A stretch of 64,000 nucleotides of DNA from Paramarasmius palmivorus. Lineage: Eukaryota > Basidiomycota > Agaricomycetes > Agaricales > Marasmiaceae. Below are positions 1,328 to 33,191 of this stretch, piece by piece. Both the position numbers and the translations under genes were made by a program. Within the stretch, counting starts at the first letter, position 1. The number at the start of each line of letters is the position of its first letter. Where the stretch lies: contig JAYKXP010000087.1 in NCBI GenBank assembly GCA_037176845.1, positions 160,914-224,913 on the forward strand, read 5' to 3'. The notes beneath the pieces are model-generated. The model saw only the letters and a list, made by a program, of their open reading frames with translations. It was not told where the DNA came from and did no database searches.

Positions 1328-1329
1328 GT

Positions 1330-5244: not shown

Positions 5245-5369
5245 GATAGGCGGCTGGGTGAAAAACAGCCAACTTACCCACGCCTGTCATAATTTAGATA
5301 CCGCGCCTGGCATGTATCTCTGACCGGTTATATCATTGATGACAAATTCAACGACCTTTGTTCAAACCT

Positions 5370-6170
5370 CAGCGTCTACACACCGAGATGCAATGTAACT
5401 CACTTCAAGTCTCAGCGTGGATTCGCCGACCTATTCCACACTAGCAACTCAGCGTCCTATCGCTGAAACATTCTACCTCTCCAGAACTCAGCGTCGCATC
5501 GCTGACACCTGTGACATCGATATCTGCACCTCCCTACCTGTCTCAGCGTGTCCTCGCCGACCTATTCCACACCTTCTCAGCGTCTCCTCGCTGATGTGTA
5601 CCCCCTTCGAAATATCAGCGGACACTCGCTGAGATAAGGCACCACTAGCCGTCTCAGCGTGTTATCGCCACCTCAACGAGTCTCGGCGTCTCATCGCCGA
5701 GGTATTCCACCTCCACCATCTCAGCGTCACCTCGCTGACCTATTTCACGTCCACCATCTCAGCGTCTCATCGCTGAGATATCGCAACTCTACCTCTCTCG
5801 GCGTGTCGTCGCTGACCTATTCCACCTCCACCATTTCAGCGTCTCCTCGCCGACCTATTACACGTCCAACATCTCAGCGTCTCGTCGCTGAGATACTGGA
5901 CCTCCAACATCTCAGCGTGTCATCGCCGACCTATTTCACGTCCAACATCTCAGCGTCTCCTCGCCGACATGATCCGCCTCCACTATCTCAGCGTCTCATC
6001 GCTGGGACATTTCACCTCACACATCTTAGCGTGCCATCGCTGAGGTACTGGACCTCCACCATCTCAGCGTGTCATCGCTGACCTATTCCGCCCATAACAA
6101 CCTAGCCGCCTCCCAGCGCTACAACGCTGACACCTTCACCTGCGTCCCCTCAGCGTCGACACGCTGAGAT
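5370..6170. repeat. Palindrome array A: about 21 units of CTCAGCGTSTCNTCGCTGA
   Basis: About 21 units are spaced roughly 38 bp apart, each with the imperfect palindrome TCAGCG-N6-CGCTGA (variants CGGCG and CGCCGA). They start at about 5369, 5411, 5448, 5488, 5541, 5577, 5613, 5653, 5682, 5719, 5758, 5797, 5835, 5873, 5910, 5949, 5988, 6025, 6063, 6112 and 6150. Spacers are pyrimidine-rich (ACCTATTCCACCTCCACCAT-like). Long open frames across it are just translation of the repeat. The position just inside the left element end and the shared motif with array B suggest a subterminal transposase-binding region. Confidence 0.9.
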
Positions 6171-6353
6171 GCTCGGTTTGGCCGTGTTGATGTAGATTCT
6201 ACGAAAATTTTCTTCGGCCTCATCCACCATACCGCATTCACCGACACATATCTACCCCTGCAAAGTTCGTCTATCCTCCTATTGAGACCAGACCATCTTG
6301 AATAACATTTTCTGTAGATTCAATCCAAGGCCGAGATATCACGGCTCTCCACC

Positions 6354-7433
6354 ATGGACACCTTCCCAACCGAGTTGATCAGCATGATAGTCCAGCATGC
6401 CCTCCCATCCGCACCCATATCGATTGACACATCAACACATCGACGCCTACTCCATCATCTAACCAGTATTTGTCGGAAGTTCCATACAACCACGCTACAA
6501 ACTGCTCGGCTCGAACAGATTGCCCTATATATCGACTCATGCCCCCATAACCAAAATTCACTCAAATTCCTCACGTTTCTTCTTGAGCACGCTCGAACAC
6601 CTCTCAAAATTTCCATACGTTTCAACCCCCTCACTCTCGACACCTTACCTTCATTATGCCCATGCATTGCTCTCCTCCTCACCAAGCCTTGGGACACACT
6701 CACAGTACAGGGTATTAACTGTAACCCTGGGACGGCTGGACAGGTCATTGACGCCCTAATTCCCCAACACGCCCTGACATCGCTGTCCCAGGTCAAGATT
6801 AACGCCGAGGAACACACCACCGACCCACATATAGAGCAGCTGTTTCTCGTTCTCTCCCAAAAGCGTGCCCATGGTCACCTTAACTTGGATCTGTGGCCTT
6901 GGTGCAGTACAAATCTCCAGCACCATCGTTTTCCACATCCACTTCCACACATAACAACACTTCACCTCACCACCAGCTGGCGCAACATTCCTACCATTCT
7001 CTATCTTCTTCCTAATCTCCATTCGGCAACACTGGCAATTGAACGCCCAGATACCCATGCCGGAGACCCCGATCGATATACCGGACCGCGTGTACGGCTT
7101 CCCTTGCTCCAAAATCTCACCATCGTCATAAGCCAACCCATGCAATCCGCGTCTGCCACCATTGCAGACACCGTTCATGGATCTGATTGTTTGTCGAAAC
7201 TTCTCTCGCCCGTCCTCTGTGCCTTTACCCTGCGGTGGAATGCACACCCAGGACCCTCACACTGCCAACACCTACCACGCGGCCTCGGTACGATCCTCAG
7301 GCAACACAGAGACACAATACGCCTGTTTATGTTTCACGATTACACCCATGATCGAAAGGGAATATCAAGCTTGTTACGGAGTAGCGGTGTTCACGATAGT
7401 ATTTTTCGGTATCAAGGATATTTGTCTCCGTAG
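6354..7433 (+). CDS. F-box protein (cargo paralogue 1)
   Basis: Single-exon 359-residue protein. The N-terminus (MDTFPTELISMIVQHAL) is an F-box core of the LP-x-E-L/I-I type. After it comes a short helical segment (HHLTSICRKF) and a long leucine-rich C-terminal region with LRR-like spacing. F-box proteins bind Skp1 and recruit substrates to SCF ubiquitin ligases through the C-terminal part; the substrate here is unknown. The segment SLKFLTFLLEHARTPLKI and the later PCIALLLTKPWDTLTV align with the two minus-strand F-box genes near the other end of the element. The start is the first ATG, immediately before the F-box. It lies 180 bp inside palindrome array A and points inward. Its reading frame is intact. 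Confidence 0.8.
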   Translation: MDTFPTELISMIVQHALPSAPISIDTSTHRRLLHHLTSICRKFHTTTLQTARLEQIALYIDSCPHNQNSLKFLTFLLEHARTPLKISIRFNPLTLDTLPSLCPCIALLLTKPWDTLTVQGINCNPGTAGQVIDALIPQHALTSLSQVKINAEEHTTDPHIEQLFLVLSQKRAHGHLNLDLWPWCSTNLQHHRFPHPLPHITTLHLTTSWRNIPTILYLLPNLHSATLAIERPDTHAGDPDRYTGPRVRLPLLQNLTIVISQPMQSASATIADTVHGSDCLSKLLSPVLCAFTLRWNAHPGPSHCQHLPRGLGTILRQHRDTIRLFMFHDYTHDRKGISSLLRSSGVHDSIFRYQGYLSP

Positions 7434-7535
7434 ATTCTGGCATTGTAATACATACACATAGCCTCATGCTCTATTACGCTCGCTTTTACTTTCAACCAAT
7501 GCGACCCCCACGTGATACAATTGAACTCGCTTACC

Positions 7536-7616
7536 GTAACCTTAGCCTATCTACCATTGTTCTGTCTCATCTCATGTTACCTTAGCCTATCTACCATCGC
7601 TCTGTCCCATCTCATG
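7536..7616 (+). repeat. 41-bp tandem duplication at the start of the zinc-motif gene
   Basis: Two adjacent copies of ACCTTAGCCTATCTACCAT followed by CTGTCCCATCTCATG occur with few differences. The second copy ends at the ATG chosen as the start of the following gene, so the first copy supplies an upstream ATG in the leader. Confidence 0.75.
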
Positions 7617-9234
7617 GCCTCTCCCAGTAAAACCATCACAGCCAAGCAAAAGGCCCAATTCAAAGAATTATACCCCAAGCGCGATCTTAATCATGCAAGC
7701 CAGTGGCTCAAACTGAATGCCTCCAAGGTAAAGCACAACACCATCCTAGACGAGCAACCACCCAGCCCTTTGATATAGACGTGTCGAGCCTGCAAAGCCA
7801 GTGGTACAAAATGTGTCATGCCCGAAGGTGGTACCGCAACACGATGTGTTCCATGTGGCAGCTCCAAACGTACACCTTGTTCGAAAACAATTCTTGAGCG
7901 GAAGGCCCGCATCCTCGCGGCCATGAACCTGACCCATGCTGAATACGACTGTCTCGACGAATGGTATAATGAAAGTGTTTTGATTCCTCGAGCCGAAGCC
8001 AGAAAGGAGCAAAGACGCAACGAAAAAGTGAGCACCGCTAGATGATCTTGTTTACCCACTCAACGTCTCCCCAGGGTCCATCGTCCTCTCAGGTTAACAA
8101 GAACCATAAAAACAATAAGAACACAGTCAGTAATCCATTCTCATTCTTTATCCCTCCAGATCTCAATGTCGTCAACCTTTAGCGTTTGTCATCTGAACGC
8201 AGTACTTCCCCCTCCAACCACCCCAACCACAAACGAAAACCAAGCGCTGTAAACCTCAGTATTACCCCCAAACATGCCATCATCCCTAATGACGCCATAT
8301 ACAGAGCCCTGAACCCCATGCAAAGAGAATCAAAACTGTTGTCCCCGAATCAGAATCCGAGGAAGAGATTGTCACACGAAGGAGACCCCAAAAAAACGTC
8401 ACTGTAGAGGTTAGTTACCTCTCCTGGTCCTTCCCAGCCAGTCTAACTGTATCTAGGTACCACCTGTCCTCCAAACCAGCAAAAAACCTCGCGAAAACTT
8501 GGACTCCGACCAACCCACTGACCACGAGACCGACCAAGATGATATCACTCCTAACGACGCACCCATGGCTGAAGGTCTACGTGGTATAAGCCCAGCTTCC
8601 GTCCACAGCGACACAATGCCAACCAGACAAACTGTGACCGAACACGAAAGCCTTCGTGTACGTCGTTCGCCACTCAGTGCCCAAATTAGAAAGCTGACCG
8701 GAATTAGTCGTGCAAACCTACCAAACAGCCACGCAAGTTGACTTTAAATTGGCCATCAACACCCCCAAACGCACAATCCAACGTTCGCCGGCCCCTGTCT
8801 CCACCAGAACGTAGACATCCCCGGAAGTCAGCGCGGCGTTCCCCCTCGAAATCGGTGACTCCTCCGGCTTCCATCCATTCTATGCCCAAACGCCAAGCAG
8901 AATACAAGACCGACTGAGACATAGCAAAGCCACCCGTGTCAACCTCCGCTGTACCTCAATCCAGCATTAGTCAAAGCCTGCCTCCCCGGTACTTCATCAA
9001 TCTATGGCCACTAATCAGACCATTGCTTACCGTTCTTCTCCTGTTAGGCCAACCATTCCATCTCCGGAGGACTTTAGGCAAATGATTCATGCGCTACGAC
9101 ACGTCAAACGCGCCTTTGAAGATGTCTCCAGCGATCTCCGTTTTAACCGACGAGCACCGGGGGAATCCCTGGGGGATTTGAATGTAGCTATTGACAGATT
9201 TCATTCGGTTCTTGCACCCCACGAAGGAATTTGA
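7614..9234 (+). CDS. Zinc-motif (double Cys cluster) protein, multi-exon, 3' part uncertain
   Basis: Exon 1 (7614-7727, 38 codons) and exon 2 (7779-8027, 83 codons) join in phase across a 51-bp intron with a TATAG acceptor. Exon 2 carries C-x2-C-x6-C then, ten residues later, C-x2-C-x6-C (TCRACKASGTKCV ... RCVPCGSSKRTPCSK). This resembles fungal zinc clusters but lacks the classical full Zn2Cys6 pattern. After it comes a conserved-looking helical stretch (ILAAMNLTHAEYDCLDEWY). Further exons are likely (8186-8407, 8499-8741, last exon ending at 9234), but I could not fix their junctions. A DNA-binding regulatory or transposition-accessory role is inference from the cysteine motif and location inside the KDZ element. 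The LTR element begins 14 bp after the last stop. Confidence 0.5.
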
Positions 9235-9250
9235 ACCATGTAGCCGCTAA

Positions 9251-11091
9251 TGTGTCACAAACAACCTAAGTATAAGTGGTGGGCTCTGCGACTTTGGGTC
9301 ACTAATAGAACTATAGGACACAGCAGAAGCCTAGTAATAGACCACAAATACAAAGATTCAGTAGATGCTGGTTATGAACAGCAGCACACTAGGGGTGACT
9401 AGTTGTGCAAGTGTGGTTCGACGTGATCAGAGTTGCCGTACTTAGAATAGTACACAAACTATAGATCTGAGAGTGATGATACGCTCTTCGTTACTTCAAA
9501 AGCAATCGAGATACACCTTATATTAGGGGCGACTAAAGGTTACGAATGCTTATAATAGGGTAGGAAACAGTCCCAAGTGCTATAGGTAGCGATCTCGAGT
9601 TCAACCAATACTGCCTCAAGTGTACTGATCCTGATAGAATCAAATCAACGAACTGTGCGCAAGCAGGAATCCAACTGACTCTCCAAAATGGTCAATCTGG
9701 GCCACTCTACGTCACTGAAGCTTATAAAAGCTAGTCCGAGGTCTAATCTCTACACAGAAAACGCAATGCAACCAATGCTTTAGAGCTACAGATCACAAGC
9801 CAGAATACTTGATCTCTCTGCCAATACAACTTAAGCTCTTGTATACAGTAAGGTCTCAACTAGACTTTCAATCTAGGGCCTGTCCTGAGGAGTGGAAGCG
9901 AATGCAAAGGTCGTCAATAGATCAACCAGGTCTGATCAGAGGTCGACTCGTAACAAGCATGAAACACCACTGGATCAACTTATATAAGAAGGTCCAATCG
10001 AAATGCACATGTGCCAGCAGATCAACTATCAGATCAAAGAGGTCTATTCGAGCGACAGCCACATACAACCTAATGATATGGGCTACAGAGCACTCTCCCT
10101 TCGTCTTTCTCTGCCCTTCTACCTACAAACTGCAAGCCTATATATACTGTCCAGAAATATAAGTAAAGAAATATGTAATAAAAGATGGAAAACAGACGGA
10201 ACGCAAGCGGAATAAGTGAGGAACAGAGATAGTCCATAGGAAATTATACAAATCAGGAAAATATTACAGTCACAACGTCCATATAAGTCGTTTTATGCGT
10301 GACCAATAAATAGGAATTTCTATCTTTAGACTCAGAGTTGAATCCTGTGCCTGTGGGTTGGCGTTTAGCCCTAGTAAAGTTTATCTTTTCTTTGTGCCAA
10401 GGCACTTATCCACAATGAGAGTCGTTTCCGACTTCTCCACACACCGGAATGCTCAGTCATCCTTGTTTCTGGACCTGGCATATCTTTTACAAGTCTCCGT
10501 GTCCACAAGGAACACTTCTATAAGCAGTTTATCTTCTATATCAGCCTCCATACCATGACAACCATATGCGTCACAGTTCTACAGCTTTGCCTCTGTGTCC
10601 GATCAATAGGAACAACTATGGCCAACAATTCTAGACTCGGCAAGTGCCTTTCATATGCTCTCGGACCATATCTGCCGATGAAGCCGTCTCCTACATCAAC
10701 TTGGATCGTTCCCTTTGAACCCGCTCATCTCTTTGGTTGGTCATGAAGAAGTATTAAAAGTGTTTAAAAGCAAATAGTCCCCTTGATATGTCTTAGACCA
10801 TGCACAGACGGTGTACCAGTCGTGATCCAACATAGTACAGCTCCCTACAGTTTTCAGGAAAGGGTCTGCATTGACAGAACCACTAATATAAGCTATAGCA
10901 GTGGCCAGATACCCATGTGAGGCGTACCATGTAACCATATACCTGCTAATATAAGTGCGTCTGACAAGTCCTTGACTTTGACTAGCTATTCAGGGCTCAT
11001 ACTAGTCCTTCAGAGTCCCAATCATAGCATAACAGAATATAAAAGTGCAATAATGCGTTCAAATAAAAGGTATTAAAAGTCAGGCGTATCA
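9251..11091 (-). repeat. LTR (3' LTR in element orientation)
   Basis: 1841-bp long terminal repeat matching 15097-16931. I counted about six substitutions and twelve 1-bp indels against its partner. All indels fall between about 9690 and 10480. Ends read TGTGTCAC and GCGTATCA on the plus strand. Confidence 0.9.
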
Positions 11092-13366
11092 TCTCCCCCC
11101 AAACAAAATGAAGGATTGTCCTCAATCCATCCACTTGCTGGTAGATTCAAAGACAAACAACAAGACTGAATGACCACCATCATAAGATATTCTCTTGGGT
11201 TTACTTTGGGTTACCAAGATTGTGCTAGTGACTAAGGTCTTTTGCATCTAATCTTTTGGCTAACAAAGTTCTATCTCTCTAGATCAAGTAACACTGAAAC
11301 TGCTATACACCTTGTGTTCAAACACACTTTTAAAGGTGCTGCAACTGCATGTTCTTGGTAGGCTATGTTCTTTCAATTTCCGAGTGCTTCAGACATGTGT
11401 AACACTCATGTTCACCAATATAAGATTGTAGGGGTCTGGGTTCAATAAAATTCATCCATTCCATCCTACTTTCTTGCTTTCTAAGTCTTTAGGTGAGTGT
11501 TCCCTTCTATTTCGTCTCCTTAATATATCTTGGTAGACTAATATTAGGTACTAACACCTCCTGTTATCTTTTATAAGGTCTATTTTATGCATCTTTCATC
11601 TTGTACTAGGTCATTTCTAGCTTCGGTACCTGGCAGGCTGCCAGTTCGAGCTTTGAACCTTAGCAATCATCAAGATTACTCTGCACTCTTCTTCTAAATT
11701 CGTTAAGTATACTAGTACTAGCCAATCTGATGTCACATTCTGAATGCTTCAGTCAGATCCTCTAGCTATCTTGTACACTCGCATTTCTAATGTCTTCTAT
11801 AAGGCTAATACAACAATGGTTAAGCATTGTACATCTGATTATTGATACAGATGCTAACTCCAGCTCTTGTTGTAACCTTCTGTCTATAATCATCTATCAA
11901 TCTTGTCTAGGATTGCTCAAGAACGTCAAGGCTTTGTCTATCAATCAACAATCTAGCCATCTATGATCTGCTCTTTTCAATCTCAGGACTTGATCTTGCT
12001 TTTATAGGGTCTCTTCGATGTCTTACAACCTTAATATGCTTTTCATCGTGTCAAGCATCGTCTTGTAATACTGCATCTACTGCATGAATTACATTCTATA
12101 GCTTTGACTGACACTACTAGCTTCATTAAGTTGCATTCTCTCTATTGCACAAGTCGAACTAGTAATATAAGTCTTTTACTAGCCCTTAACTTGTAAGGTT
12201 TTGAATGTATAGCAGTCATACTACTTGTATACATTCGTTTACTATCCCATCAACTCTAACTTCTGCTTGTGGGTGATCTGAGTCTTCAATCTAAGTAAAG
12301 CAATAATACAGCATCGACATTTCATGCTTATATTAGCTCTATCTTCGTTTACTCTTGATCTGAGGTTGCTCTAATACTCTGTGACTGATACAAACTTGTA
12401 AATCGCAAAAAGTCCAGATGGCTAAACCTCCTTCTCCCCCCAAACAAAATGAAATATCAACATCCTTGTTGATTCTCATATATCAGAGTTAGGATTCTAG
12501 TTTTCGCTTCTATAGCAAGCTTATATAAGGTCAAGAGATCATGGAATCACATTGAAATTGTAGTTGTCTTGTCAAGTTGTAGCTTATACAAGCCCATAAA
12601 CTACTTTCAATAACTGCAATTCCACTCTAGCTGATAGTCTCTACCTTATACAAGGTTACTGTCATTCTATATGTCTTTCAAATCATAAGTGAAAGCAACA
12701 CCAATAAGGTTCACTGTCTAAATGCTTCTCTAAACATTTACTAGAGCTTTGAGACTATGAATCCAGGTATCCTGCCATCGTCTCTGGCTAGTCATATGTT
12801 CTAGCATTATTGAACAGCTTGCTTCCCTTTCTATATGCTGTAATTCAGCTAAATCCATCATTTATAGGTCTTATAGAAGGTCTCATCAGATAGATGCAAT
12901 CGTCATATGCATATACAAGTCAACTAAGCAAGCATCTGAGTCACATTGACCATGCTATTCAGGTCAATTGATAGTACTCAACACTTCTAATAGATCCTTG
13001 TGCTAACTGATGTACTGCTTCAAAGCAACAGTCTCTAAGTTAACTGCACGTGTCCAATCTGATACATCTATCTCTCATATGTATATGTTACATATGTTGA
13101 CTGCTTAACAGCTCATTCAACAATATGTACATTAATATCAATGTTTTAGGTCAGATAGTAGCTTATAAAAGCTATCTACTGCCTTTCATTCTCTATATTT
13201 CATAACATAACCCAGTTCCATACCATGAAACCAAGTGTATGTGTCCAATCTAAGCTAGCGTGATGATCCTGAAAGCCTTTTGTACCATGTTTTTGCCCAA
13301 TAAATAATAATATATGCTTTTATAAGGGTTTTATAAGAGGGCGCAAACTTGTACTAGGTCTTCCAA
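11092..13366. other. Internal non-coding part of the LTR element
   Basis: AT-rich DNA with no reading frame of at least 60 codons and no pol motifs where pol would be expected. It includes a second copy of the polypurine-tract core (CTCCCCCCAAACAAAATG-like) at about 12437-12451, resembling an internal or displaced priming site. Confidence 0.6.
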
Positions 13367-14458
13367 TCAATAGTCGTCTACTTGCTCAAGCCAGGATGCT
13401 TGTAGTAGTCCAGGAAGGTCATCCAGAGCCTGCTTTATACTCTGTACTTCTTCTACTAGACCATCTACTTGTGCAAAAGTCTCTCTAAGCGAGTCTAACT
13501 CCTGTTGTCTGCCTTGCAAAGTAGCAGCATATGCTTCACATACGACATCACCATCATCATCACTAACTTCATATTCATTGAAGTAAGCCTTGTAAACCTC
13601 TTTCTCTATGCTTTCAAGATCTCTATCAAGTGCTTTTGACCTTTTATAAGTACTGGAGGAAGACACATGGAACGATTCAGCCTGTACAGATGACTTGGAT
13701 GAAGTCTGAGATGGTTTCCTCTGCAAGCTATCTTTTATAAGCATGTCTGCTAAAGATAAATCATTCATCTTCATATAGACATTGCTCTCCTCAGATGCCA
13801 TAAGATTCTCCATTTCATTCATAACATCCTCAAGTCTCCAAGGATCGTCCTGACGTCTCCTTGTCTTTCTAGACTGAGATTGATCACTCTTGATTTTTTC
13901 ACGGGTTATATTACCCATTACTTCAAACAAGCGACGTCTCCAATACTCATTCAGTCCACTCAAATAGTACTGAACAGCATGATAATTGTTCACAATCACT
14001 GGCTCTTCCATAAGCTTGTTAACTTCAAGCCTGAAGGCACGGTTATAGGCTTTCAACTTCTCTAGGTTATCTATATCATTCTGACGATGTCTATGAATGA
14101 CTTGCTTTAAACAGCTAATAGAACCACTTTCGCTACGAGCTGCCTCTGGGAAATCATCAAGAATCATCTCTCTAAATTTGTCGTAGGAGTGTCCAAGAAC
14201 AACGTCTCTAGACTCTATCTCTTTTCTATATGATCTATCACATTTACTCATTGCAAGGTAAATCTTGGCCGACTCTTCTCTTATATTAGCAGCTTGGAAT
14301 GCTATTTCTAGCTCATCCAACCAATCAAGCAATAAGTCAGACTTATCAGGATTGAATGTACTCAAGTCCTTGAATGTCTTCCTTGTATTAGCATTGCTAA
14401 TCTCAGCTGCTGCCTCATCAGATAGAGTAGTCCACAAAGTATGCAATAAATGTGCCAT
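13367..14458 (-). CDS. Gag-like protein of the LTR element
   Basis: Intact 363-residue ORF starting MAHLLHTLWTTLSDEAAAE. The middle region has the layout of a retrotransposon Gag core: LLDWLDELEIAFQAANI, then a helical section with YDKFREMILDDFPEA, then IHRHRQNDIDNLEKLKAYNR and YYLSGLNEYWRRRLFEVM. The C-terminal third is acidic and ends in a coiled-coil-like segment (LVEEVQSIKQALDDL). No CCHC zinc knuckle is visible. It should form the capsid of the particle if translated. It starts about 640 bp downstream of the 5' LTR in element orientation and is the only coding sequence, consistent with a gag-retaining non-autonomous element. Confidence 0.75.
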   Translation of the reverse strand: MAHLLHTLWTTLSDEAAAEISNANTRKTFKDLSTFNPDKSDLLLDWLDELEIAFQAANIREESAKIYLAMSKCDRSYRKEIESRDVVLGHSYDKFREMILDDFPEAARSESGSISCLKQVIHRHRQNDIDNLEKLKAYNRAFRLEVNKLMEEPVIVNNYHAVQYYLSGLNEYWRRRLFEVMGNITREKIKSDQSQSRKTRRRQDDPWRLEDVMNEMENLMASEESNVYMKMNDLSLADMLIKDSLQRKPSQTSSKSSVQAESFHVSSSSTYKRSKALDRDLESIEKEVYKAYFNEYEVSDDDGDVVCEAYAATLQGRQQELDSLRETFAQVDGLVEEVQSIKQALDDLPGLLQASWLEQVDDY

Positions 14459-15096
14459 TTTTGTCTATATGACTAGAGGTTTATCAAATCTAAGGGTTTT
14501 ATAAGCTTATAATAGCTTTAAATGTAGACAAAGTCCACAAAAAATTGTTGCCTAGGGTGGCAGGGTGTTCAGACGTAGATAGATGGAAGTATTCAAGCAC
14601 ACTCTGCTCTAGAGTCAATAAACTCTTTTGAACAAAGGACCTCAGCACTCAAAGTATCCTCTAAATGACGATTCCAAACTTTTGGGGGCTAGTACTAGGG
14701 TAATAAACACTTGTACTAGTAGCGTAATTGGCACGAATGAACTTGGTACCAACAACAATAGCTTGGCTAAGAGTTACAAGCTCAAGCTAGATGTGTATCA
14801 AGGCAGATGAAAGAAACCTCTGAGGTATCAGACGCTCCAAAGGCTTCTATAAGCAACTGCTACACTTTTAATCGAAAACCACACTCAATCTAGCGACTAA
14901 ATGTGGGGTTTTGATAGAAGTACTTGTCTAACTTCAATCAAGATAGATGGGGATGTAAACCTCGTCAAGGTCTACAAGTAAATGAAAGGAAAGGTGCAAA
15001 TATCAAGCTAATAAAGCTTCTAAAAGGTATCACTTCGTCTCAAATCCACAATCTATGACAATTCTAGAACCACCCCTCGCGGTGGGCTCCAGATAA
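14459..15096. other. 5' untranslated internal region of the LTR element
   Basis: Lies between the gag start and the 5' LTR. It contains the candidate primer-binding site (15075-15091, minus strand). No other gene is visible. Confidence 0.6.
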
Positions 15097-16931
15097 TGTG
15101 TCACAAACAACCTAAGTATAAGTGGTGGGCTCTGCGACTTTGGGTCACTAATAGAACTATAGGACACAGCAGAAGCCTAGTAATAGACCACAAATACAAA
15201 GATTCAATAGATGCTGGTTATGAACAGCAGCACACTAGTGGTGACTAGTTGTGCAAGTGTGGTTCGACGTGATCAGAGTTGCCGTACTTAGAATAGTACA
15301 CAAACTATAGATCTGAGAGTGATGATACGCTCTTCGTTACTTCAAAAGCAATCGAGATACACCTTATATTAGGGGCGACTAAAGGTTACGAATGCTTATA
15401 ATAGGGTAGGAAACAGTCCCAAGTGCTATAGGTAGCGATCTCGAGTTCAACCAATACTGCCTCAAGTGTACTGATCCTGATAGAATCAAATCAACGAACT
15501 GTGCGCAAGCAGGAATCCAACTGACTCTCCAAATGGTCAATCTGGGCCTCTCTACGTCACTGAAGCTTATAAAAGCTAGTCCGAGGTCTAATCTCTACAC
15601 AGAAACGCAATGCAACCAATGCTTAGAGCTACAGATCACAAGCCAGAATACTTGATCTCTCTGCCAATACAACTTAAGCTCTTGTATACAGTAAGGTCTC
15701 AACTAGACTTTCAATCTAGGGCCTGTCCTGAGGAAGTGGAAGCGAATGCAAAGGTCGTCAATAGATCAACCAGGTCTGATCAGAGGTCGACTCGTAACAA
15801 GCATGAAACACCACTGGATCAACTTATATAAGAGGTCCAATCGAAATGCACATGTGCCAGCAGATCAACTATCAGATCAAAGAGGTCTATTCGAGCGACA
15901 GCCACATACAACCTAATGATATGGGCTACAGAGCACTCTCCCTTCGTCTTCTCTGCCCTTCTACCTACAAACTGCAAGCCTATATATACTGTCCAGAAAT
16001 ATAAGTAAAGAAATATGTAATAAAAGATGGAAAACAGACGGAACGCAAGCGGAATAAGTGAGGAACAGAGATAGTCCATAGGAAATATACAAATCAGGAA
16101 AATATTACAGTCACAACGTCCATATAAGTCGTTTATGCGTGACCAATAAATAGGAATTTCTATCTTTAGACTCAGGAGTTGAATCCTGTGCCTGTGGGTT
16201 GGCGTTTAGCCTAGTAAAGTTTATCTTTTCTTTGTGCCAAGGCACTTATCCACCAATGAGAGTCGTTTCCGACTTCTCCACACACCGGAATGCTCAGTCA
16301 TCCTTGTTCTGGACCTGGCATATCTTTTACAAGTCTCCGTGTCCACAAGGAACACTTCTATAAGCAGTTTATCTTCTATATCAGCCTCCATACCATGACA
16401 ACCATATGCGTCACAGTTCTACAGCTTTGCCTCTGTGTCCGATCAATAGGAACAACTATGGCCAACAATTCTAGACTCGGCAAGTGCCTTTCATATGCTC
16501 TCGGACCATATCTGCCAATGAAGCCGTCTCCTACATCAACTTGGATCGTTCCCTTTGAACCCGCTCATCTCTTTGGTTGGTCATGAAGAAGTATTAAAAG
16601 TGTTTAAAAGCAAATAGTCCCCTTGATATGTCTTAGACCATGCACAGACGGTGTACCAGTTGTGATCCAACATAGTACAGCTCCCTACAGTTTTCAGGAA
16701 AGGGTCTGCATTGACAGAACCACTAATATAAGCTATAGCAGTGGCCAGATACCCATGTGAGGCGTACCATGTAACCATATACCTGCTAATATAAGTGCGT
16801 CTGACAAGTCCTTGACTTTGACTAGCTATTCAGGGCTCATACTAGTCCTTCAGAGTCCCAATCATAGCATAACAGAATATAAAAGTGCAATAATGCGTTC
16901 GAATAAAAGGTATTAAAAGTCAGGCGTATCA
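15097..16931 (-). repeat. LTR (5' LTR in element orientation)
   Basis: 1835-bp partner of the repeat at 9251-11091, with the same ends. It is shorter mainly because of single-base indels clustered in its middle part. Confidence 0.9.
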
Positions 16932-20400: not shown

Positions 20401-20620
20401 ATCTCTTCGCTCCCTCGACTGGCGTTCTGCGTTTGTTTGGCGCACGAATCCGACGCCCTTTCGGGTTGACTTTGGAAGGGCTTCGATTGAACGTCTGAGT
20501 ATGTCCAGGAAATCGCACTGAGGCACGCCTTGTCTCCGCAATCGGTTCCAGGACAAATGTGCGTTTCCGCTGTGGTGCGGGCTCTAGGGCAGGCATTGTC
20601 GATTGCTTACTAAGCGCCAT
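17466..20620 (-). CDS. KDZ transposase with CxC4/SWIM-like cysteine clusters (giant element)
   Basis: Six exons (20620-20138, 20087-19932, 19878-19587, 19534-18746, 18691-18474, 18425-17466) joined by 48-54 bp introns keep one frame and total 2898 nt, 965 residues. Exon 2 has a SWIM-like C-x-C...C-x-H (LTCLCPRGNQHCLH) and exon 3 another cysteine-histidine cluster (SCHKDAHVNCSHKRKA). Exon 4 has CPSC and CPDCG pairs around a section (FVAFVLCISRIYESRGTKF) typical of CxC4-associated KDZ proteins. The core in exon 6 has likely catalytic acidic residues in RVIYDFACALGPYC, the conserved LVDKFHAKGHSKC, and an acidic motif NSSEAECGNSGIGRIRKSV. KDZ proteins are RNase H-fold DDE transposases that cut and paste DNA in the nucleus. 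An apparent in-frame TGA (18429-18431) falls inside the fifth intron (GTGAGC...GACAG). The start is 33 bp from the divergent gene. Confidence 0.85.
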
Positions 20621-23076: not shown

Positions 23077-26000
23077 ATGTCCGTATCTACTATCTACTAT
23101 CGCCCTATGTCTGATTCGATCATGAAAAGAGTCACCCCTGGAGTACGATTACCGGCCGAGCTCCTCGCCCACCCCGAAGTGGACTACAGCGCTGTGAAGC
23201 GTCCATTCGACTTCAGTAAACCTAGAAAATGTGGTATGGTGTGGCAATGACTGTGAGAGGGTTAGAGTAGTTGTCGCATTGACGTCAAGCAACCCAGTGC
23301 CGCGCGGGGGAGGGGGCCAAAATTCTTTGTATCATTAGAGTACGATGACATGGATGGGGGCAAGACGACATTCCAATTGGCGCAATCAAGGCAGAAAGGA
23401 TGGTTCTGCTCATGTGGTGAGTCCGCAAACTTCAGGTCAGGCGTCGATCAACCGTGCAACCATCAATCAACTATGCAAGCTTGCGAGGCATTTGACAATC
23501 ACTCGTGATCAACGCTGACACCTACAGCCATGCCAGGTCCTCAAGACCATCACGGATACCAAGCATGGTGAGTCCCCAAACAACACTGGCCGGCCGTCGC
23601 TCGACTCCAGGAATGCAAAGGCAGGATGGGTGTGACTGACAATTCCCTATCATAACAGAAAATGATCATTCAATTGGATGGGAGATGCCAATGTAGCCTA
23701 TGGAAGGAATGGGAGACCAGAACCTCATCGAGTTCGCGCACATCCCGATTAGGCAAATGCCGACGGCAGTGTGATATTGCCGCTTTTCACCCCTCACCGT
23801 CTGCACCACACATGAACGGAGTTCCGTCGTCAGCTCTCCGTCCTCAACCTCAATCGCCAGGAGAACAGGACCGCTCAGGGTACAGCTCTGATGGTAGCCT
23901 CGACGAATTCATCCAAAGTGTTCTGGACGAACCATGTTCGGACGTGGAATCCACCGCAACGAGGGAACCACCTCTGCCCCCCGACTATTACGCCTCAGAC
24001 GAAGATGACATTCTCGATGCTTTTGTTCGCCAAAATGTACAACATGCCGCCCCCGATTCTCCTTCTCCACCACCGAGAGTTGGTATGTATTTTGCGTGTC
24101 GCCTCAGTTACCGCGTGTCGTTTATCGTCGATCCCAGCTTATATGACCGTGAAGCATCGCCTGTGCCAGCAGAACACGCGGCCAAACGTACTACGACCAT
24201 CCACAGGCAGTGAAAGGGTCGTTGGACCAAAATCTCAGTCTCGGCCAATTCGAGAAACACTTGTTGGACCACACCGGACTTCATTGGACTCAATACAGGC
24301 TCAGCCAGGCAAAACGAGTGGTGTAAACCAAAGTATTGTGAGGGAGGTCACCAATGAAGGTAATAAAGGCAGACCTCGCCTTCGGACCTCTGATCATGCC
24401 GTGCTTGGTGGATAATGCTCGAGTGTTCGAGGACGAATGACACGATAGGCACGTACAGGGCACCTAGTCACTTGATTGGTACTCATAACCCCGGATGCAG
24501 CGACACAAGGACCGGACCATGATCACACACGCATCAATGTCGAGATGACAGCCAGTGATGGAGTGGATGCCTTGGAGCGACGACGAGAAAGGGAGCGGGA
24601 GCGAAAACGACGGTAAAATTCCTTGTATTGTGGACAGTTACCTCTGTGTTCCTGACTATGATATGGGCATAGGGAGAGGAAGGCCAATCCAGAATTGCAC
24701 CGAGCCAGGCAGAGAGTCTATTCCGCTCGCTATAGGAAAGGGCGGGAGGCTGAACTGGCGGAAGCCGAAAGATTACGCCGACGGAAGAAAAAGGGGGACA
24801 ATCGATGAAGCATGTGGCAGTGATGAAAATGGTGTGATATCGTTATCACAGTTGCGAAGGATCGTCCCATGGCAGCTTGGCACCCGTTCGTAATATAGCC
24901 ACCCAGATAGATGTAATGCGTGTAGAGCGCAAAATAAGGCCCAAAAATCCAAAGAAAAAATGGGCTGCGCTAAAGAATACTAGTGATGGTTTTTCTCGGA
25001 GGGCGAGAATGATGGAAAGACAGGGAGTTGGCGCCAGGGGTGAAAGAGTGAACCAAGGGCAGATGATTTTGAAATGCGTGCAGTCGTTGCACTCGGGGGA
25101 AAATCCACCTTTCTTTCCTACCAGCACGTCTCAGTGTCAACCTGCGCCAACACTTAAGCAATGGATACTTGTAAGGGCCCAAAAAAAAACTTACTAAACG
25201 CCCACTGATTTTTATTCCACCACAGCGAGTACAAGCATGATGGAGGAGTGTCGCAAGGGTAGGTAACATGCCTGCGGGGTGTTCCAAATGACTAACGAAG
25301 AGCGACAGAGTTGTCCGACGCCAGACAAAAGCTTGTAGCGTTGGAAAAGGCTCAGGAGACCGCTATGAACCAGCTTCGCAGTGCGAAGGGGAGAGTGACG
25401 CAAGCGACGAATAAGCTGAAGGCTGGGCGTGCACTCCCTGCCCGGCCGGGTAAGGAAAGGGAAAAAGAGATCAGGATAACCCAATCGGAAGAGCGTTCGG
25501 CCCAGGCAGTGGAGGCCAGGGACGCGAAGCAGTCTGAGTTGGAGAGAGCGGCAACTGAGGTTGAACAAGGGAAGAAACGAGTGCTGGCGCTACTAGCCAA
25601 ATTGCAAGGTATTTCTTCGTTTTGCTGGCCCAAATAACCGCCTCTCATTCTTCTCGATAGAATTGGAGGCGATACAAGCTGAGCTTGTTCACCAACCGGA
25701 GAGGCAGTCGCAGGAAGAACACCCGAGGAGTCTGCCAGGTATGCGAGTCCAACGTTTATGTGAGGTAGGTGTTGATAGACCGCCGCCGTAGTGTCTCCAC
25801 TGCTGCCAGAGGGAGAGAAGTCCCCCATGCAAGAGATCAGTGAGTGTTCACTCAATTTTTGTGAGTCTCATCGTGAGCACCAGCCAGATTCTTCGGGAGA
25901 TAAGGTCTCGATACCGACAGATGTGCCTGTACCAGTTCACGGCCATCACCCACCAAACACCGCGGAAGAACGGACGCCAGAGCCGATTGGTGATGACCAT

Positions 26001-28053
26001 CGCTCAGGCGTTGCTGTCGGAGTGAATACTCCCATAGTCGTTGGTATTCCTTCGCAATTGCAATCCAATGTCGACCCTGCAGTGGTCGTGGGCACGGCTG
26101 GAACGAATGGTGGAGGTGGTTCGTCTTCAAGCAGTGAACCATCACATGCATCACATCCTATCGCAGTCGCACAAGCATCAACTTCAGTGGCCGGAAAGGG
26201 GCCCAACGCTGCGGCTTCGGCGGCTTCCTCGTCTACTACAGATCCAGTGGATGTCCCGGTTGTGGTTAGGGATGGTATGGTGTTAGATGAGGAGGACTTG
26301 CTTGCCGTTTCAGCTCCACCGAAATGCAAAGGCAGCGATAACATGCCGGAGAGAGGAGCGACCCCCAAAAGAGTACGTCGTGGAACGGATTCGATGGAAG
26401 TGGAAGATTCGCAAAACCAGGTACGTTCTCCTTGTGAATCGATATCATTCATAAGAATAATAGGGCGAGTTGTAGATGGATAATGTCGGTGAGAGACTGG
26501 AGATCACGGACGATTGCGGAAGCGCGCCAACTGGGGTGGAGGGGGAGCCGACGGCCAATGTCAACAGTGAAGTGAGTGTACATTGTGGTTGTGGTGTGTA
26601 ACAGAGGCCTGAACTGCGACTTTGTACAGGCGGCAACGAGTGTGGGCGGAAAGCAGCGTGACAAAGGCAAAGGGAAGGCGAAGGTCCAGCCAAAGCAGAA
26701 AGGCGAGGGCAAGAAAAAGGCGAATATCGGCCCTGCCTCTCGTGTCAAGGCGATTGGAACGGTGGAAGTTGCTGATGATGAAGCACGCCCTGTTGCAGAG
26801 CTTCTCGATGATCGTGCGTGCATCAGTTCACCTTTCGACGCAAAAGAGTTTTCCCTGGGTGAGTCATGGCGTAGGTCTTCTGAGAGAAAAGAAACTCACC
26901 TGGTGTTAGAGATGGAAGAGAAAATCAGGGATTGGCTAAAGCTCGTCCTAAAAGATCCCGCCAAACTGAAGGAGGTGTCCCCCCCAACTGGAACATACAC
27001 CTATATCATGTCTGATGCACGTCTCGCTCCAGAGGTGGCGTATACAGCTCAGGAGATTGCAGAAAAGCTGTTTGTCTCGCAAAACGCTGCATTCAAATGT
27101 GTCTGCCATTCTCGAGGAGACAAGCAGACGCAGAGTTGGGATCACCCTGACGAGTTTTTCGGAATCCCTTGGGAGCCGTTTCCAACCACCTTGAAAAAGA
27201 TGATGGGTCAACATATGTGGCCACCAGTCAAGCGGGATGCACCGGCTCCGAAGACTTTGTTCGCGGCGAGGTATGCACCGGATGTCGTCGACCGACTGGC
27301 AGACATGAACCAGAAGAGGTTGGCGTACAACGTGAAAAAGAAGCAGACGTTGGAGTTGAGGGTAGAACCAGAACATAGCTTTGGTGGCCCTAGCTCCGTC
27401 TCGCAAGGGGTCGAGCGAGACTCGTTTGGGAGAGACGTTCGGTGTATGGACTGTGGTTGCTTGTTGAGACATGCGCTGATGTACTTGGCGTTGTGGAAGA
27501 TGGGGAGAATAGGGTCTATAACTCATCCAGGGTTCTTCATGCAGGGGAATGATTCGTATCTGGCGTCTCGAGATCGACAGTTCTACCTGGAAGATTTGGA
27601 ACGGTTGGGGAAAGTCAGATTGGAAGATCTGTACACACACGTACTGGTGACGGATCCAAACGACCCTCAAAAGCAGATCTTCCAGAGGAAGAACCCTATG
27701 CTTGCTCTATGTAACCAAGCGAGTCGTATCTTCCAGGATATGCATTTGTTGGCAGCAAAGGGATTTTCAGTGCCGAAGGAATTTGAGCAGTTGGGTGATT
27801 TCCTGGGTATTGCTACGAAGCAGGTTAAGCCGGCGGAGGAGAAAGAGGAGGAGCCGATGTCGCTGTTGGACCAGAACAACGAGGAATACCTGGAACAGGG
27901 TGCACTGCGCGCTCAGCGCTCAACGTAAGTAGATTGTATTGTACCTCTTTACTGTATACATAAACGGAGGCACGTGCCGTTACCCGTCTCTTCAATGTTG
28001 GACTCGACAATTTCAGACTGAAACCATTGCTATTGTATGATGCGCAACGAGTG
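23077..28053 (+). CDS. Large multi-exon accessory protein of the giant KDZ element
   Basis: The first exons fit in phase: 23077-23215, 23339-23416, 23528-23567, 23697-24082, then one starting about 24138, then one near 24501. About fifteen exons reach a terminal exon after 28010. Early exons encode a Cys/Trp-rich segment (QKGWFCSCAMPGPQDHHGYQ, then CLWKEW) that could be a GRF-like zinc finger, comparable with the accessory gene of the second KDZ element. Next come acidic regions, a basic helical section (LERRRERERERKRR, then ARQRVYSARYRKGREAEL) and a coiled coil at 25311-25610. After a Ser/Ala-rich linker, the C-terminal 430 residues (26631-27928) are well conserved in appearance (HPDEFFGIPWEPFPTTLKKM; RCMDCGCLLRHALMYLALWKMG). 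I do not recognise that domain. It is not a TET/JBP dioxygenase: no HxD iron motif is seen. Probably a transposition or regulatory partner, by location. Confidence 0.55.
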
Positions 28054-28200: not shown

Positions 28201-29601
28201 TTACATGATGGTTGGGTCCGTGGTCCACTTGTAGGAGAACGGGGCATTGGTTTGGATTCGGTCCTGCAAACGTTGTATGAAGAGCGAAACCTTCATCGGC
28301 CCGGTTTCATGCAAGAGCACTATGGATTCCCATGGTCCTCGCTCGACAAAGTTGAAGGTGCAGAGCGAGTCGTAGGAATCGGCAACAGTGAGGAAATCTT
28401 CAAGGGCATCGCCGAACCGCTGGGACATGATGTGTGTGTCGTGAACCCAATGCAGGGACATCGACTTGAGATTGATCGCTACGATTTGCTGGAGGAGAAC
28501 ACCCATTGAATCGGAGGGTGCACCTTGCACAACGAGAGTGAAGGACTTTAGTTGTTCGAGATGGATCTTCTGGGTCGTGAATCGAAGCGGGTGTAGTGGT
28601 GATATCGTGTCGTGGAGGTCGAGTGTGTGCACGTGCGAGAATGGACGAAGAGAGTGATGAAAGCCTTGAGGACACCCCCTGAGGCTCAGACTCTGCACCA
28701 AAGGAAGGGATGCCTTCAGAAATGTTGGATCATGAGGAATCCAGTGTCCCAGCCTGAGACTCACATGGCACGACAGTCGACGAGTCGCCAGCACATCCAA
28801 GAGTCGCATGGCATCCCAACCTTTGATGCGTTCATCGACCTCAATCTCGACGTATGTGAGTGAGGGTTGGGTGAACATAGCCTTGTTGAAAGCAAGGTTG
28901 GTAACAATGAAGTCGGTGATTATGGGGTATTGTGACGCCGAGATTGTAAGCGAGGCGATGGGATGTTCCATAACGTTATCCAGGCATGAGCAGAGTGTGT
29001 CACGGACGTGAGGAATGGGGATATTGTACGGACTGTCTTGTGACGACAATAGTTGCAGGGTGAGGTTAAGGGGACGTTTACGTGCGAGACTGAGGATAAA
29101 ATAGAGGAAGCGAATTTGTCGATCGGAGTGAGAGAAACATTCGGGGGGTCTTTTGAGGGTGATTTTGCAGAAGTTGCCAGGATTTGTCAAGGTGGCCTGT
29201 CGAAATCGCTGGGAGACATGTGCTACTGCAAGGGTTCGTCTGTTGTCGCCTCGCCTGTAGTGGTGGGTACTGTCAAAGGTGAAGCCGTTGACCATGGCAT
29301 GCGAGACTATCTCGCGTATGATCTCGGCGGGGAAAATCGCGAAATCTCCGTCGATCTGACTAGAGGAAAGGGTTAGAGGACGCGTGTGAGGTTGCCTGAA
29401 GATGGATGAACGTACGCGTTACTGGGTGTTGGGGACCGGTCTGCTGCAAGATTGACGTCGTCAGGGGGAGTGGGTGACTGGTGGGCTGCTGTCGCTGATA
29501 TAAATCTGAATGTAGGCTTGAGAAACTTGTAATTTGGTGCGTTATGATGAAAAGAACATACTCAATGGAGGGGCTTCGACTGATAGGTCGGCTTGTGACA
29601 T
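28201..29601 (-). CDS. F-box protein (cargo paralogue 2), three exons
   Basis: Exons 29601-29562, 29494-29416 and 29359-28201 join in phase across 67- and 56-bp introns (GTATGT and GTACGT donors) and give 425 residues. The F-box core is at residues about 44-70 (FAIFPAEIIREIVSHAM), followed by VAHVSQRFRQATL. The rest is leucine-rich with LRR-like spacing. IRFLYFILSLARKRPLNL aligns with the equivalent region of the 6354-7433 protein, showing they are paralogues. Likely an SCF substrate adaptor; substrate unknown. The frame is intact. It is tail-to-tail with the large accessory gene (148 bp apart). Confidence 0.8.
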
Positions 29602-30254: not shown

Positions 30255-31526
30255 TTAGCCAGTTCCGCTGGGTGCGGGCTGGTCGAAATTGCCGTCTGTT
30301 GTCCCCCAGGTTGGTATAGGTCCCCAGTTCCCGTTGGAAGGACTGTCTTCATCGTACCACAGGTCAAATCCACGATAATGATATTGAAAGCCGGAAAGAG
30401 CAAATTGACAGCTAAGAAGCATGTCTGCGAATTCCTCGCCGTCGTAATTGCTCTTGGTTTGGAAGTTGTGGAAGGTGAAGGTTCGTAGGGATATAGAGGT
30501 TTGATGAATGAGGGCACGGATGCCGTCGAAAAAAAATTGACTAGTTGTGGGGCTCTCTGGAGCGGTCCATTCAATCGACAACGTGCGAAGCCTGGGCAGC
30601 ACGAGATTTTGAAGAAGGTCATGGAAATGATGTGTAGGCTCGGTGGTAATGATAAATTCCAGGGAACGTAGATCTGGCAGGGATACATGACCCCTTGACC
30701 AGTGCCGTTCAGGTCGAAGAGTCCAATCGCCAAACGATAAATTAAGCTGGACGGACTGAAGACTGGGGAAACACGCGATGACGGGGAGAACAGCAAGGGT
30801 GCTGGAGTAGAGTATGAGCGTGTAAATGAAGGGGAGGCGGGACTGAATGTGGACATGTTGAGGTAGGGGTACCAGCCCCATGTTGCGGTAGACATGGTGC
30901 CTTAATCGAAAGCTGACGCTCAGCAAGGGAGGTTGGAGAAGCCGGGGAAAATCGTCACCCCATCAACCGTTGGAAACGCCGGTTTCGAACCGGGTCAGGC
31001 TGTCGATGTGTAGAGGAGAATCACATCGTCAAGTAAAATCACAAATGCGATTGAATCCCCAGCAGGTGGTGATCTTCAGTATCGGCCCATGGACGGTGAA
31101 GGACGATATCGAGGCAAATGACAAGGAACAGCGGGGTCGTCCAGCTCTGCTGGCTTGTGCAGCCTTCTTCGTCACTCTGCGTGTCACTGTCGCTGTGGCT
31201 TGGTGAGAGGTCGATATCGAGTTCGAGGGGATGTTTGGCATTTTGCACCAGAAATATGAGGAAGGCGATGGAGGCGGGATCGGATGACAGAGTATCGCCG
31301 TCGTCCGCTCGCCAGCAGTTAAGGGTTATCCGATGAAATGGGTGCATTGAGAATGACGATAGCGTGGATGCGTTTACTAGTGAAGTAAAAGGGACAGCAG
31401 GTCACGGCGGCAGAGGTGATCGCAGTCGGGGAAAAAATCTAGAGCATGGGCAAACTATCTGCGCCAGAGCTCGTGGGGGAGTGAAGGCGGTGATGAATTT
31501 TCGGTGGGTAATTTGGGGGACTGCAT
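30255..31526 (-). pseudogene. F-box paralogue 3, broken
   Basis: Starts MQSPKLPTENSSPPSLPHELW (31526), an F-box beginning. The frame then meets TAG, although the same frame continues with FAHALDFFPDCDHLC. It then shifts at TSKRIHAIVILNAPISS, and again into a third frame at HPFHRITLNCWRADD (31347-31039). The next block (30926-30255) contains LPDLRSLEF, LQNLVLPRLRTLSIEW and TSISLRTFTFHNF, aligning with the other two F-box proteins. At least two frame changes and one stop indicate a decayed copy, or a poorly assembled one. Its orientation (pointing inward from the right-hand array) mirrors F-box 1 at the left end. Confidence 0.65.
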
Positions 31527-31966
31527 AGTGGGATGGGTGTTGTATATGGCGAGGTGGAGGAAAATTGGGATGTGGTGGTGGTGGTGGTGGCCAATTGTGA
31601 GATGTCGTGCGAGAATTGTGAGGAAATGCAAAGGATTGACATTTGGCTCTTCATAGGGTACACATACTAATCATAACACGAATATATAGCAAATAATCGG
31701 CAAAAGCGTCATGTTCTGGGTAGGAACAGCGCTGGTGTGGACGGTAGACTGATGTTAAATGATTGAAAGTTACTATCGCTAGATAAGATGTAGGAATTGC
31801 TCTGCGAGCCTCGACCAGTTTCGGTGTGTTTTAAGAACACGCAAACATGGGTCTGGTGAGAGTGGCAGGAGCAAAATACAAGGGAAGGCAGGGTGATTAG
31901 GTTTTTTGGGGCAGTGAGGCTGATGTTTGGATGTACCTCTGCGATGACGTGTTTAGCGAGACAGAA
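31527..31966. other. Stretch without a gene between broken F-box and array B
   Basis: Contains a (GTG)n-type run near 31567-31590 and otherwise nothing recognisable. Confidence 0.4.
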
Positions 31967-33035
31967 GTCAGCGTGACAACGCTGAGCCTGAGAAAGGAAT
32001 GAAAGTGGGCAATGGAGTGCATTTGGCGGAGGTCGAGTGAGCGATTGATCGCTAAGATAGATGGCCATGGTCGACTCAGCGATTCAACGCCGAGGTTGAG
32101 GGATTCATGAAACTGAGCAAGGGGTCGCTGAGACGAATGCCGTACAACGCCGAGTATGTAACTGAACTGAGCGAGGAGACGCCGAGACAAATGGCAGTGG
32201 TAGACTCAGCGAATCAACGCCGAGTTTCAGGGATTCATGAAACTGAGCGTTTGGTCGCTGAGAGAATTGCTGGTAGTAGACTCGGCGATGGAGCGCCGGG
32301 TTATTGGGCTATTCGACCACACTGGAAAAGGTATTAAGTAGTTATACAAGATGGTATTAGGGTGTAGACATACCATATAGGATAATTGGGATATTAGACA
32401 GGACTGGAAGTGAGCGATGGGTCGCTGAGATAGATGCCTGCGGTAGACTCAGCGATTCACCGCCGAGTTTCGGAGAGGAAATTGAAGTGGGCGAGGAGAC
32501 GCTGAGATAGGTGACAGTGGTAGACTCAGCGAGTCAACGCCGAGTTTGGGTGAGAGAGTGAATCTGAGCGAAGGGTCGCTGAGATAGGTGACAGTGGTAG
32601 ACTCAGCGATTAAACGCCGAGTTTGTTAGGTAGTGAATTTGAGCGATGGGTCGCTGAGACAGGTGCCAGTGGTAGACTCAGCGAGTCAACGACGAGTTTG
32701 GGTGAGGAAATTGAAGTTGGCGATGGGTCGCTGAGATAGGTGACGGTGGTAGACTCAGCGAGTCAACGCCGAGTTTGGGTGAAGGGTAGATTGGGAAGGC
32801 TAGACATGTAGAGAGCAGTGAGTACCATGTAATACGGACGGAAGTGGACATACCGATGGTCGGACGCAACGGTCAAAGCAACCCTTAACACCTGAGCGTG
32901 GCATCGCCGAGAACCTTGAACCCGAACAATGTCAGCGAAGACTCGCCGAGCCTTGGAAATGGAAAATGTGTTCTCAGCGCATGTACGCTGCAACGGGTCA
33001 TTATACAGAGTGGGCGTGTGGTCGCCGAGAGTTAT
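31967..33035. repeat. Palindrome array B (right end of the giant element)
   Basis: The first unit (TCAGCGTGACAACGCTGA, 31969-31986) is identical in form to array A. The rest is a 70-80 bp unit with two palindromes each: GAGCGATGGGTCGCTGAG and CTCAGCGAGTCAACGCCGAG, separated by ATAGGTGACAGTGGTAGA-like sequence, repeated about nine times. Array A-type units return at 32892-33030. The motif runs in inverted arrangement relative to array A. Likely the subterminal repeat region of the KDZ element. Confidence 0.85.
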
Positions 33036-33191
33036 GAAGGTCGGTGTCCTATTCTTGTCTACTTTACATGTTTGGATATTTATTCCCACAAGTACACTTT
33101 TGGTGGATACGGTATCCCGACACCGCCCGGCACGGTATCCAAGTTATGATGGGCGCTGTTACCTTATCTGTCATTTTCCCAGGCGGCTGCC

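Follow-up and report, generated by a model that had tools for sequence, protein, structure and literature searches.

A well-bounded family of multi-gene KDZ-type transposons in Paramarasmius palmivorus

Introduction

What has split a host repeat near the left end of a 64,000-nucleotide stretch of the Paramarasmius palmivorus genome (C87:160914-224913, referred to as the window), and does the intervening DNA form a single mobile unit? An initial annotation, made from the sequence alone, took it to be a cargo-bearing KDZ-type DNA transposon of about 20 kb enlarged by a nested long terminal repeat (LTR) element. We have compared the window with the 68.3 Mb genome from which it comes, and conclude, with a probability of about 85%, that positions 5243-33193 hold a single inserted DNA transposon of the KDZ type, about 20 kb long and with an LTR element nested in it, which has an 8-bp target site duplication (TSD) on its flanks, shares its gene set with related elements, and likely moves by cut-and-paste.

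Borders and target site duplication

The left flank of the element (4960-5244) is a host repeat, the R1 unit of the initial annotation, and 53 matches to it were found genome-wide, some of them double matches at one locus. Four of its five closest relatives were inspected across the insertion site (C87:58.6k, C179:8k, C171:86k and C156:101k), and all four run unbroken through one copy of the target and continue into the sequence that forms the right flank in the window, with matches at 43-45 of 51-52 aligned bases on the left and 110-114 of 130-142 on the right. The R1 unit is continuous at the target, as had been proposed, and none of the four places the break elsewhere. Judging from an identity of roughly 77-88%, these empty sites are paralogous rather than allelic. 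Two copies of a longer host repeat containing the R1 unit, about 79-87% alike piecewise, lie at window 87-2593 and 52096-54460.

The break had been placed at a 12-mer present at 5233-5244 and 33192-33203, and although this is indeed the insertion site, the duplication is 8 bp long and not 12. The 12-mer has no other site in the window even with one mismatch; two matches were also obtained in 6 of 100 shuffles, so the 12-mer alone is weak evidence. A 12-bp duplication was rejected: the copies on contigs C59 and C37/C46 (see below) share only 9 and 8 bp at this position, and a single 8-bp border fits all copies. The CC before and the CA after the TSD within the 12-mer are element ends or chance.

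Six insertions have six different perfect 8-bp duplications, namely AAAACAAT in the window, GAATATTT for C59, CGAAACTC for C37 and C46 together (read from their flanks), GGGATTCC for C19, CATATACT for C212 and CAAAACCT for C44. The left ends elsewhere read CGGATAGG in C59 and C37, CAGATAGCCG in C19, CAGATAACCG in C212 and C44, and TGGATAGG in the decayed C167, which opens with TG instead of CA or CG. The first eleven bases of the right end of the window element are identical in C59, C46, C57, C19, C212 and C44, and a left end of C(A/G)GATA together with a right end of GGGGCAGCCGC (read inwards) leaves exactly 8 bp for the window element, C59 and C37/C46. When aligned, the other copies have these same ends, none lying elsewhere.

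The borders were also scored in a scan of positions with matching 8-mers, in which ends were compared over 28 bases with query ends from other elements. The window element and C59 were scanned with the ends of C19 and C212 only, C19 and C212 (picked for their relatives of the genes and arrays) with those of the window element and C59 only, and C44 with C212's own ends. The true pair scored 24 of 28 in the window element with the next best of 308 pairs at 14, and 23 with the next at 13 in C59 (707 pairs); the best pair scored 24 in C212 (next 13, 427 pairs) and 21 in C19 (next 13, 503 pairs). The left end of C19 was first seen by eye and its matching 8-mer found, the scan with the ends of other elements coming afterwards. 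An initial blind scan had missed C19 and C212, whose ends lie partly outside the stretches scanned; within the window element and C59 it scored the 8-mer AGGCGGCT, inside the ends, equally high, and the true ends of the window element fell below its threshold.

The similar inverted ends of the initial annotation are present but weak. Matches in the first 22 bases number 12 in the window element, 13 in C59, 12 in C212, 12 in C44 and 9 in C19, with about 5.5 of 22 expected by chance.

Related copies in the genome

The window element comprises about 20.3 kb plus the nested 7.7-kb LTR element. Its left 416 bases match C37, C59 and C167, and its right 406 bases match C57, C46 and C59. The C59 copy is full, with both ends 20.7 kb apart and without the LTR element; it aligns to most of the window element at a divergence of 12-25%, and the stretch 9235-17160 is absent from it. 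We regard the LTR element at 9248-16931 as no part of the KDZ element.

Elements on C19 (638627-659963) and C212 (21526-44618) are distant relatives with the same architecture. An 11.8-kb rearranged derivative with its own TSD occupies C44:347695-359469, and its ends equal those of C212 over the 30 bases compared per side; in the sequence inspected (the middle 4.4 kb and both ends) it holds two F-box genes, a zinc-cluster-like gene and the last part of the transposase, exon F, the transposase being truncated. A description of C44 as lacking any transposase was rejected, as exon F remains. The right F-box gene of C44 is inverted relative to that of C212. Copies with both ends are thus found on C59, C19, C212 and C44, and comparison with C59, C19, C212 and C37/C46 supports the view of a KDZ transposon of approximately 20 kb that has grown through a nested LTR element.

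The partial copies are of several kinds. C37:1-7417 is a left half, 99.5% identical to C59, and C46:421037-426038 is a right half at 93-96%; both stop at contig ends and share the flanking 8-mer CGAAACTC, and the assembly has likely divided a single copy between them. As an observation on the assembly, the matching 8-bp flanks suggest that these two contigs adjoin. C57 carries the right part up to a contig end and C167 a decayed left part only.

Alternatively, the region could be a mosaic of side-by-side insertions, or a segmental duplication, with no single mobile unit; the nested LTR element and an uneven similarity to C57 (98.5% over window ~28421-32776, and 89-91% just before) speak for this. 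However, both ends, the TSD and the main genes recur jointly in C59, C19 and C212 with different TSDs, and the C57 pattern fits recombination between copies, making such an origin very improbable; the jump in identity likely reflects recombination or conversion between copies.

Transposase and family membership

The window element encodes a predicted transposase whose reading spans six GT-AG introns and is the best-scoring of 48 open models over 900 amino acids obtained by enumeration, in agreement with the intact KDZ transposase noted initially. It matches Pfam CxC4 (PF18717, E 2.7e-40) and KDZ (PF18758, 27.3 bits at a cut-off of 26.6, profile positions 75-217 of 217), and exon F alone scores 29.8 bits with the latter. 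The motifs WDGVTL, YDFAC and AEC(GN) are retained, and the acidic motifs WDG, YDFAC and AEC, whose acidic residues we take to be catalytic, align in the window and in six listed homologues carrying both Pfam domains. The public model P0007 stops short of the last transposase exons. Relatives number 220, and the 120 listed are mostly from Agaricales, the best-scoring outside the species among the matches listed being from Marasmius at 40-45%; by these matches, relatives of the transposase are widespread in mushrooms.

Could this be a long-dead family, its arrays and genes mere remnants? The decayed C167, the rearranged C44, the YN in place of YD in C59 and the 12-25% divergence between the window element and C59 would all suit such a fossil, but the window transposase is open over six predicted introns, nine C59 segments have no internal stop, and the last 406 bases of the window element are almost identical to those of C57. 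We therefore consider a fossil family doubtful.

The family has the Zisupton features of an 8-bp TSD (in six insertions) and weak terminal inverted repeats. It departs from Kyakuja elements, which have a 7-bp TSD, CA..TG ends and no inverted repeats, in having 8 bp, a left end of CA or CG and a right end of CCCC. No tyrosine recombinase captain was found in the 16 window stretches scanned with Pfam. TET/JBP was rejected as cargo, there being no match within the element, and a genome search with PF12851 gave two sub-cut-off matches, both on C207, although very distant TET-like proteins would escape it. These two weak Tet_JBP matches, at C207:15504-15701 and 60999-61196, score equally and lie on opposite strands.

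A partner gene beside the transposase

The window frame 26576-27928 forms the end of a P0001-like protein (766 amino acids) that we refer to as the partner. Outside the P. palmivorus genome it has one match only, the metagenome protein P0002 at 41% (two matches among 7996 scored). Within the genome, 33 matches fall into 16 loci, and 13 of these lie 6.0-9.3 kb from a KDZ/CxC4 transposase match in divergent orientation; about 1.9% of the genome is within 12 kb of the 55 transposase loci, which derive from 75 rows after dropping extra exons of the same gene (68 of 146 candidates scored). Nine of the 13 transposase-linked loci match weakly (E 8e-6 to 9e-4), and the transposases next to them are only 44-52% like the query; the CxxH, GxPW and CGC pattern is common to all four of the nine that were inspected. 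The genome protein search gave no match to the left F-box protein on these nine contigs, and no array site lies near the weak loci within reach of the palindrome listing (C2, C4, C11, C23 and C30). These absences suggest that the F-box genes and the arrays were added in one branch.

Gene order, constraint and accessory genes

The order of genes is F-box (+), transposase (-), partner (+) and F-box (-) in the window, C59 and C212, with the whole element inverted in C19, and is conserved across 26-72% protein identity. Compared with the window or C59 proteins, those of C19 and C212 are 65 and 72% identical in the main transposase exon and 47 and 45% in the partner, and their F-box proteins are 26-31% identical to the left F-box protein. 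On C298 (transposase 62%), C134 and C302, too, protein-search matches put an F-box gene close to a transposase or part of one. The zinc-cluster-like gene has relatives in C59, C37, C167 and C44. Three relatives of the right F-box protein were found, all from P. palmivorus and one being the window's own, whereas left-F-box relatives occur on 12 contigs, 11 of which carry sequence of the window element family, the exception being C177.

Ratios of nonsynonymous to synonymous substitution (dN/dS) between the window element and C59 are 0.07-0.38 in nine gene segments, picked from a scan of frames of at least 60 codons that reported values under 0.75 only, while the two control stretches, selected as non-coding, are at 1.00 and 0.92. 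The values are 0.14-0.15 for two transposase exons, 0.17 [0.11-0.24] for the partner C-terminus and 0.23 for its N-terminus, 0.07 [0.02-0.14] for the second part of gene X (21852-22196), 0.24 for the zinc-cluster-like exon, 0.35 [0.26-0.48] for the left F-box-like gene (with no stop in C59), 0.38 [0.26-0.56] for the right F-box gene, and 0.24 [0.15-0.37] for the second right F-box frame. A possible upstream exon of the last (~31042-31401) is unsupported, with a dN/dS of 0.74 and one stop in C59. None of the nine segments has an internal stop in C59; the two stops there are terminal, one at the final codon of the exon F frame and the other at the opening codon of the partner N-terminal frame. 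The skew between codon positions supports the frames as given, strongly in six cases and at p 0.005 for the right F-box gene. Where 'seven or so other genes' had been counted, we find six further conserved coding segments besides the frames of the LTR element. Coordinates are given in Table 1. A 121-bp tandem duplication adjoins gene X (21078-21319) and is apparently single in C59.

Table 1. Features of the window element and its target site (window coordinates)
Feature	Position	Strand	Remarks
Left TSD copy AAAACAAT	5235..5242	.	target unbroken in four host-repeat relatives
Left end CAGATAGGCGGCTGGG	5243..5268	+	end comparison among copies
Left array, palindromes TC(A/G)GCG-N-CGC(T/C)GA, 38-bp period	5410..6180	.	
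Left F-box-like gene	6354..7433	+	homologous to right F-box gene, 25% identity, E 3e-8
Gene with Zn2Cys6-like CxxC...CxxC spacing	7614..9231 (borders approximate)	+	exon 7779-8042 clearest
Nested LTR retrotransposon	9248..16931	.	LTRs 9248-11091 and 15094-16931, 99.0% alike; absent from C59
KDZ/CxC4 transposase	17466..20620	-	predicted seven exons, 929-amino-acid open reading
Gene X, conserved product	21230..22199	+	second part 21852-22196
Partner protein (P0001 family)	25305..27928	+	predicted N-terminal coiled coil; C-terminal conserved CxxH, GxPW, CGC
Right F-box gene VNI00_014817	28201..29418	-	UniRef name F-box domain-containing protein
Second right F-box/leucine-rich-repeat-like frame	30255..30962	-	
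Right palindrome array, 77-bp period	31965..33045	.	
Right end, GGGGCAGCCGCCTGGG read inwards	33168..33193	-	end comparison among copies
Right TSD copy AAAACAAT	33194..33201	.	end comparison among copies

Are the extra genes simply host genes that a KDZ element picked up as passengers, useless to it in the manner of Starship cargo? F-box-like genes are abundant in Agaricomycetes, and the restriction of right-F-box relatives to P. palmivorus means that no old element-borne lineage was seen at that sensitivity. However, identical genes in identical order and orientation recur at only 26-72% protein identity, the tested segments are constrained, element-family sequence accompanies left-F-box relatives on 11 of 12 contigs, and the partner sits beside a transposase at 13 of 16 loci, so that capture of useless passengers seems to us unlikely. 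We favour instead that the extra genes likely serve the transposon itself, through help in transposition and in escape from silencing. The term 'cargo' undersells them, because the same genes are present in the same order in distant elements and are under constraint. The analogy with the giant elements of Ascomycota drawn initially holds in that the element carries many genes, but not in content, as a recurring, constrained gene set is unlike the variable cargo of Starships.

Palindrome arrays

The palindrome arrays reported near both ends of the window element are confirmed, and are present at both ends of the C59, C212 and C19 elements too. Half-sites TC(A/G)GCG and CGC(T/C)GA number 67 in the outer 2 x 1.5 kb of the window element, 23 across the 24,951 bases between (a count that includes the LTR element) and 19 across 36,049 flanking bases. 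In C59 there are 63 in the outer ends versus 21 in 17,701 inner bases. The two ends have 28 and 27 half-sites in C212, 25 and 43 in C19, and 27 and 18 in C44, the second C44 value being counted over 970 bases only; outside these three elements, the stretches examined hold 0 to 2. In the whole genome, the strict palindrome is found at 100 sites and the reversed pattern at 9, and the listing of individual sites covers contigs up to C54.

Proposed mechanism

Family knowledge and the duplications suggest that the element would move by cut-and-paste, using its own DDE-type transposase. The enzyme would recognize the short, weakly inverted ends and probably the adjoining palindrome arrays as well, and the element would be excised and then inserted at a target cut with an 8-bp stagger. 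The partner is predicted to be a second core component, with a part in binding DNA, in assembly or in regulation. For the F-box proteins we predict a role as substrate adaptors that would steer host SCF ubiquitin ligases, with host silencing or repair factors as likely targets; viral F-box proteins attack silencing factors. A KDZ lineage with a two-gene core of transposase and divergent partner, one branch of which added F-box proteins and arrays and so turned the host ubiquitin ligase against silencing, is a possible history that we offer tentatively and at less than even odds.

Several points weigh against reading 5243-33193 as one such transposon with these components. The inverted repeats are weak, at 9-13 of 22 in five elements; C167 is decayed, and the copies on C57, C37 and C46 are cut off by the ends of their contigs. 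With Pfam KDZ, the transposase barely exceeds the cut-off, and C59 has YNFAC where the window and six aligned homologues have YDFAC. Three of the 16 partner loci have no nearby transposase match, namely C57 (at a contig end), C249 and C194, and the fold model of the partner is unusable, with a predicted local distance difference test score (pLDDT) of 41.8. Low dN/dS values, for example 0.17-0.20, are found here and there on the antisense strand of these genes as well, so that the strand cannot be told from dN/dS alone, and skew between codon positions gives little support to the zinc-cluster-like exon (p 0.04) and the N-terminus of the partner (p 0.06). The F-box-like genes have no Pfam match above cut-off, and a fold model of the F-box protein is weak (pLDDT 47.6) with no PDB match at E 0.001; their predicted F-box identity comes from the UniRef names of the right protein and from homology. 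The genome searches were confined to a single P. palmivorus assembly, and present activity of the element is putative. The partner and zinc-cluster-like genes likewise have no Pfam match above cut-off.

Relationship to known systems

The window family resembles the Zisupton/KDZ group in its KDZ catalytic domain, KDZ-associated cysteine cluster, inverted ends and 8-bp TSD, Zisupton elements being described with 8-bp TSDs and inverted repeats (PMC12730594). Set against what is generally known of other KDZ elements, it stands apart by its size (20-23 kb), its at least six further conserved coding segments, its palindrome arrays just inside the ends and its partner, and it has no TET/JBP match. 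The TET-bearing Kyakuja elements of Agaricomycetes (Kojima 2025) are described with a 7-bp TSD, CA..TG ends and no inverted repeats, and Kojima argues that transposon TET/JBP genes aid escape from silencing (PMC12730594). A KDZ transposase accompanied by a gene with a proposed anti-silencing role is common to both groups, but the window family has an 8-bp TSD, weak inverted repeats, F-box genes and no TET/JBP.

F-box domains are associated with KDZ elements in fish, where a Zisupton with an F-box domain and F-box::CxC7 genes are described (PMC12062965); the fish cases are fusions in one protein, in contrast to the separate F-box-like genes near both ends of the window family. In the close relative Marasmius oreades, KDZ and Plavaka elements are reported and KDZ elements are common, as they are here (main text of PMC8290104), while the inverted-repeat motifs are said to be in its supplement and the word 'F-box' is absent from its main text. 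The Pleurotus MSH4 case was set aside as different, its CxC5/CxC6 inserts being described without a KDZ transposase (PMC7641404). The literature searched (titles, starts of abstracts and passages) gave no report of F-box genes or of a P0001-family partner in fungal KDZ elements.

Starships of Pezizomycotina have a tyrosine recombinase and variable cargo. The window family is like them in spanning tens of kb with many genes and one mobilizing enzyme, but has a DDE-type enzyme and a recurring gene set.

The P. palmivorus elements are a real, well-bounded family of multi-gene KDZ elements, showing that KDZ-type transposons can be large and need not consist of a lone transposase. KDZ elements are common in mushrooms, with at least 178 Pfam KDZ matches in the P. 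palmivorus genome alone (150 of 365 candidates scored, the window copy not being among the matches listed), and exact ends, an 8-bp duplication and a recurring partner and accessory set make their composition and mobility testable. Should the F-box genes indeed work for the element, transposons would, like viruses, be turning the ubiquitin system of the host against its defences. Such genes would then also parallel the TET/JBP genes of other KDZ elements, as a separate answer to silencing that works through protein degradation.

Other features of the window

Two further features lie to the right of the element. Window 34418-37375 is bounded by 146-nucleotide inverted arms that are 100% complementary, with GAT on both outer sides, and by its ends would be a second DNA transposon of about 3 kb. 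A 1.4-kb stretch at 57526-58942 has long, near-perfect inverted arms and resembles a miniature inverted-repeat transposable element.

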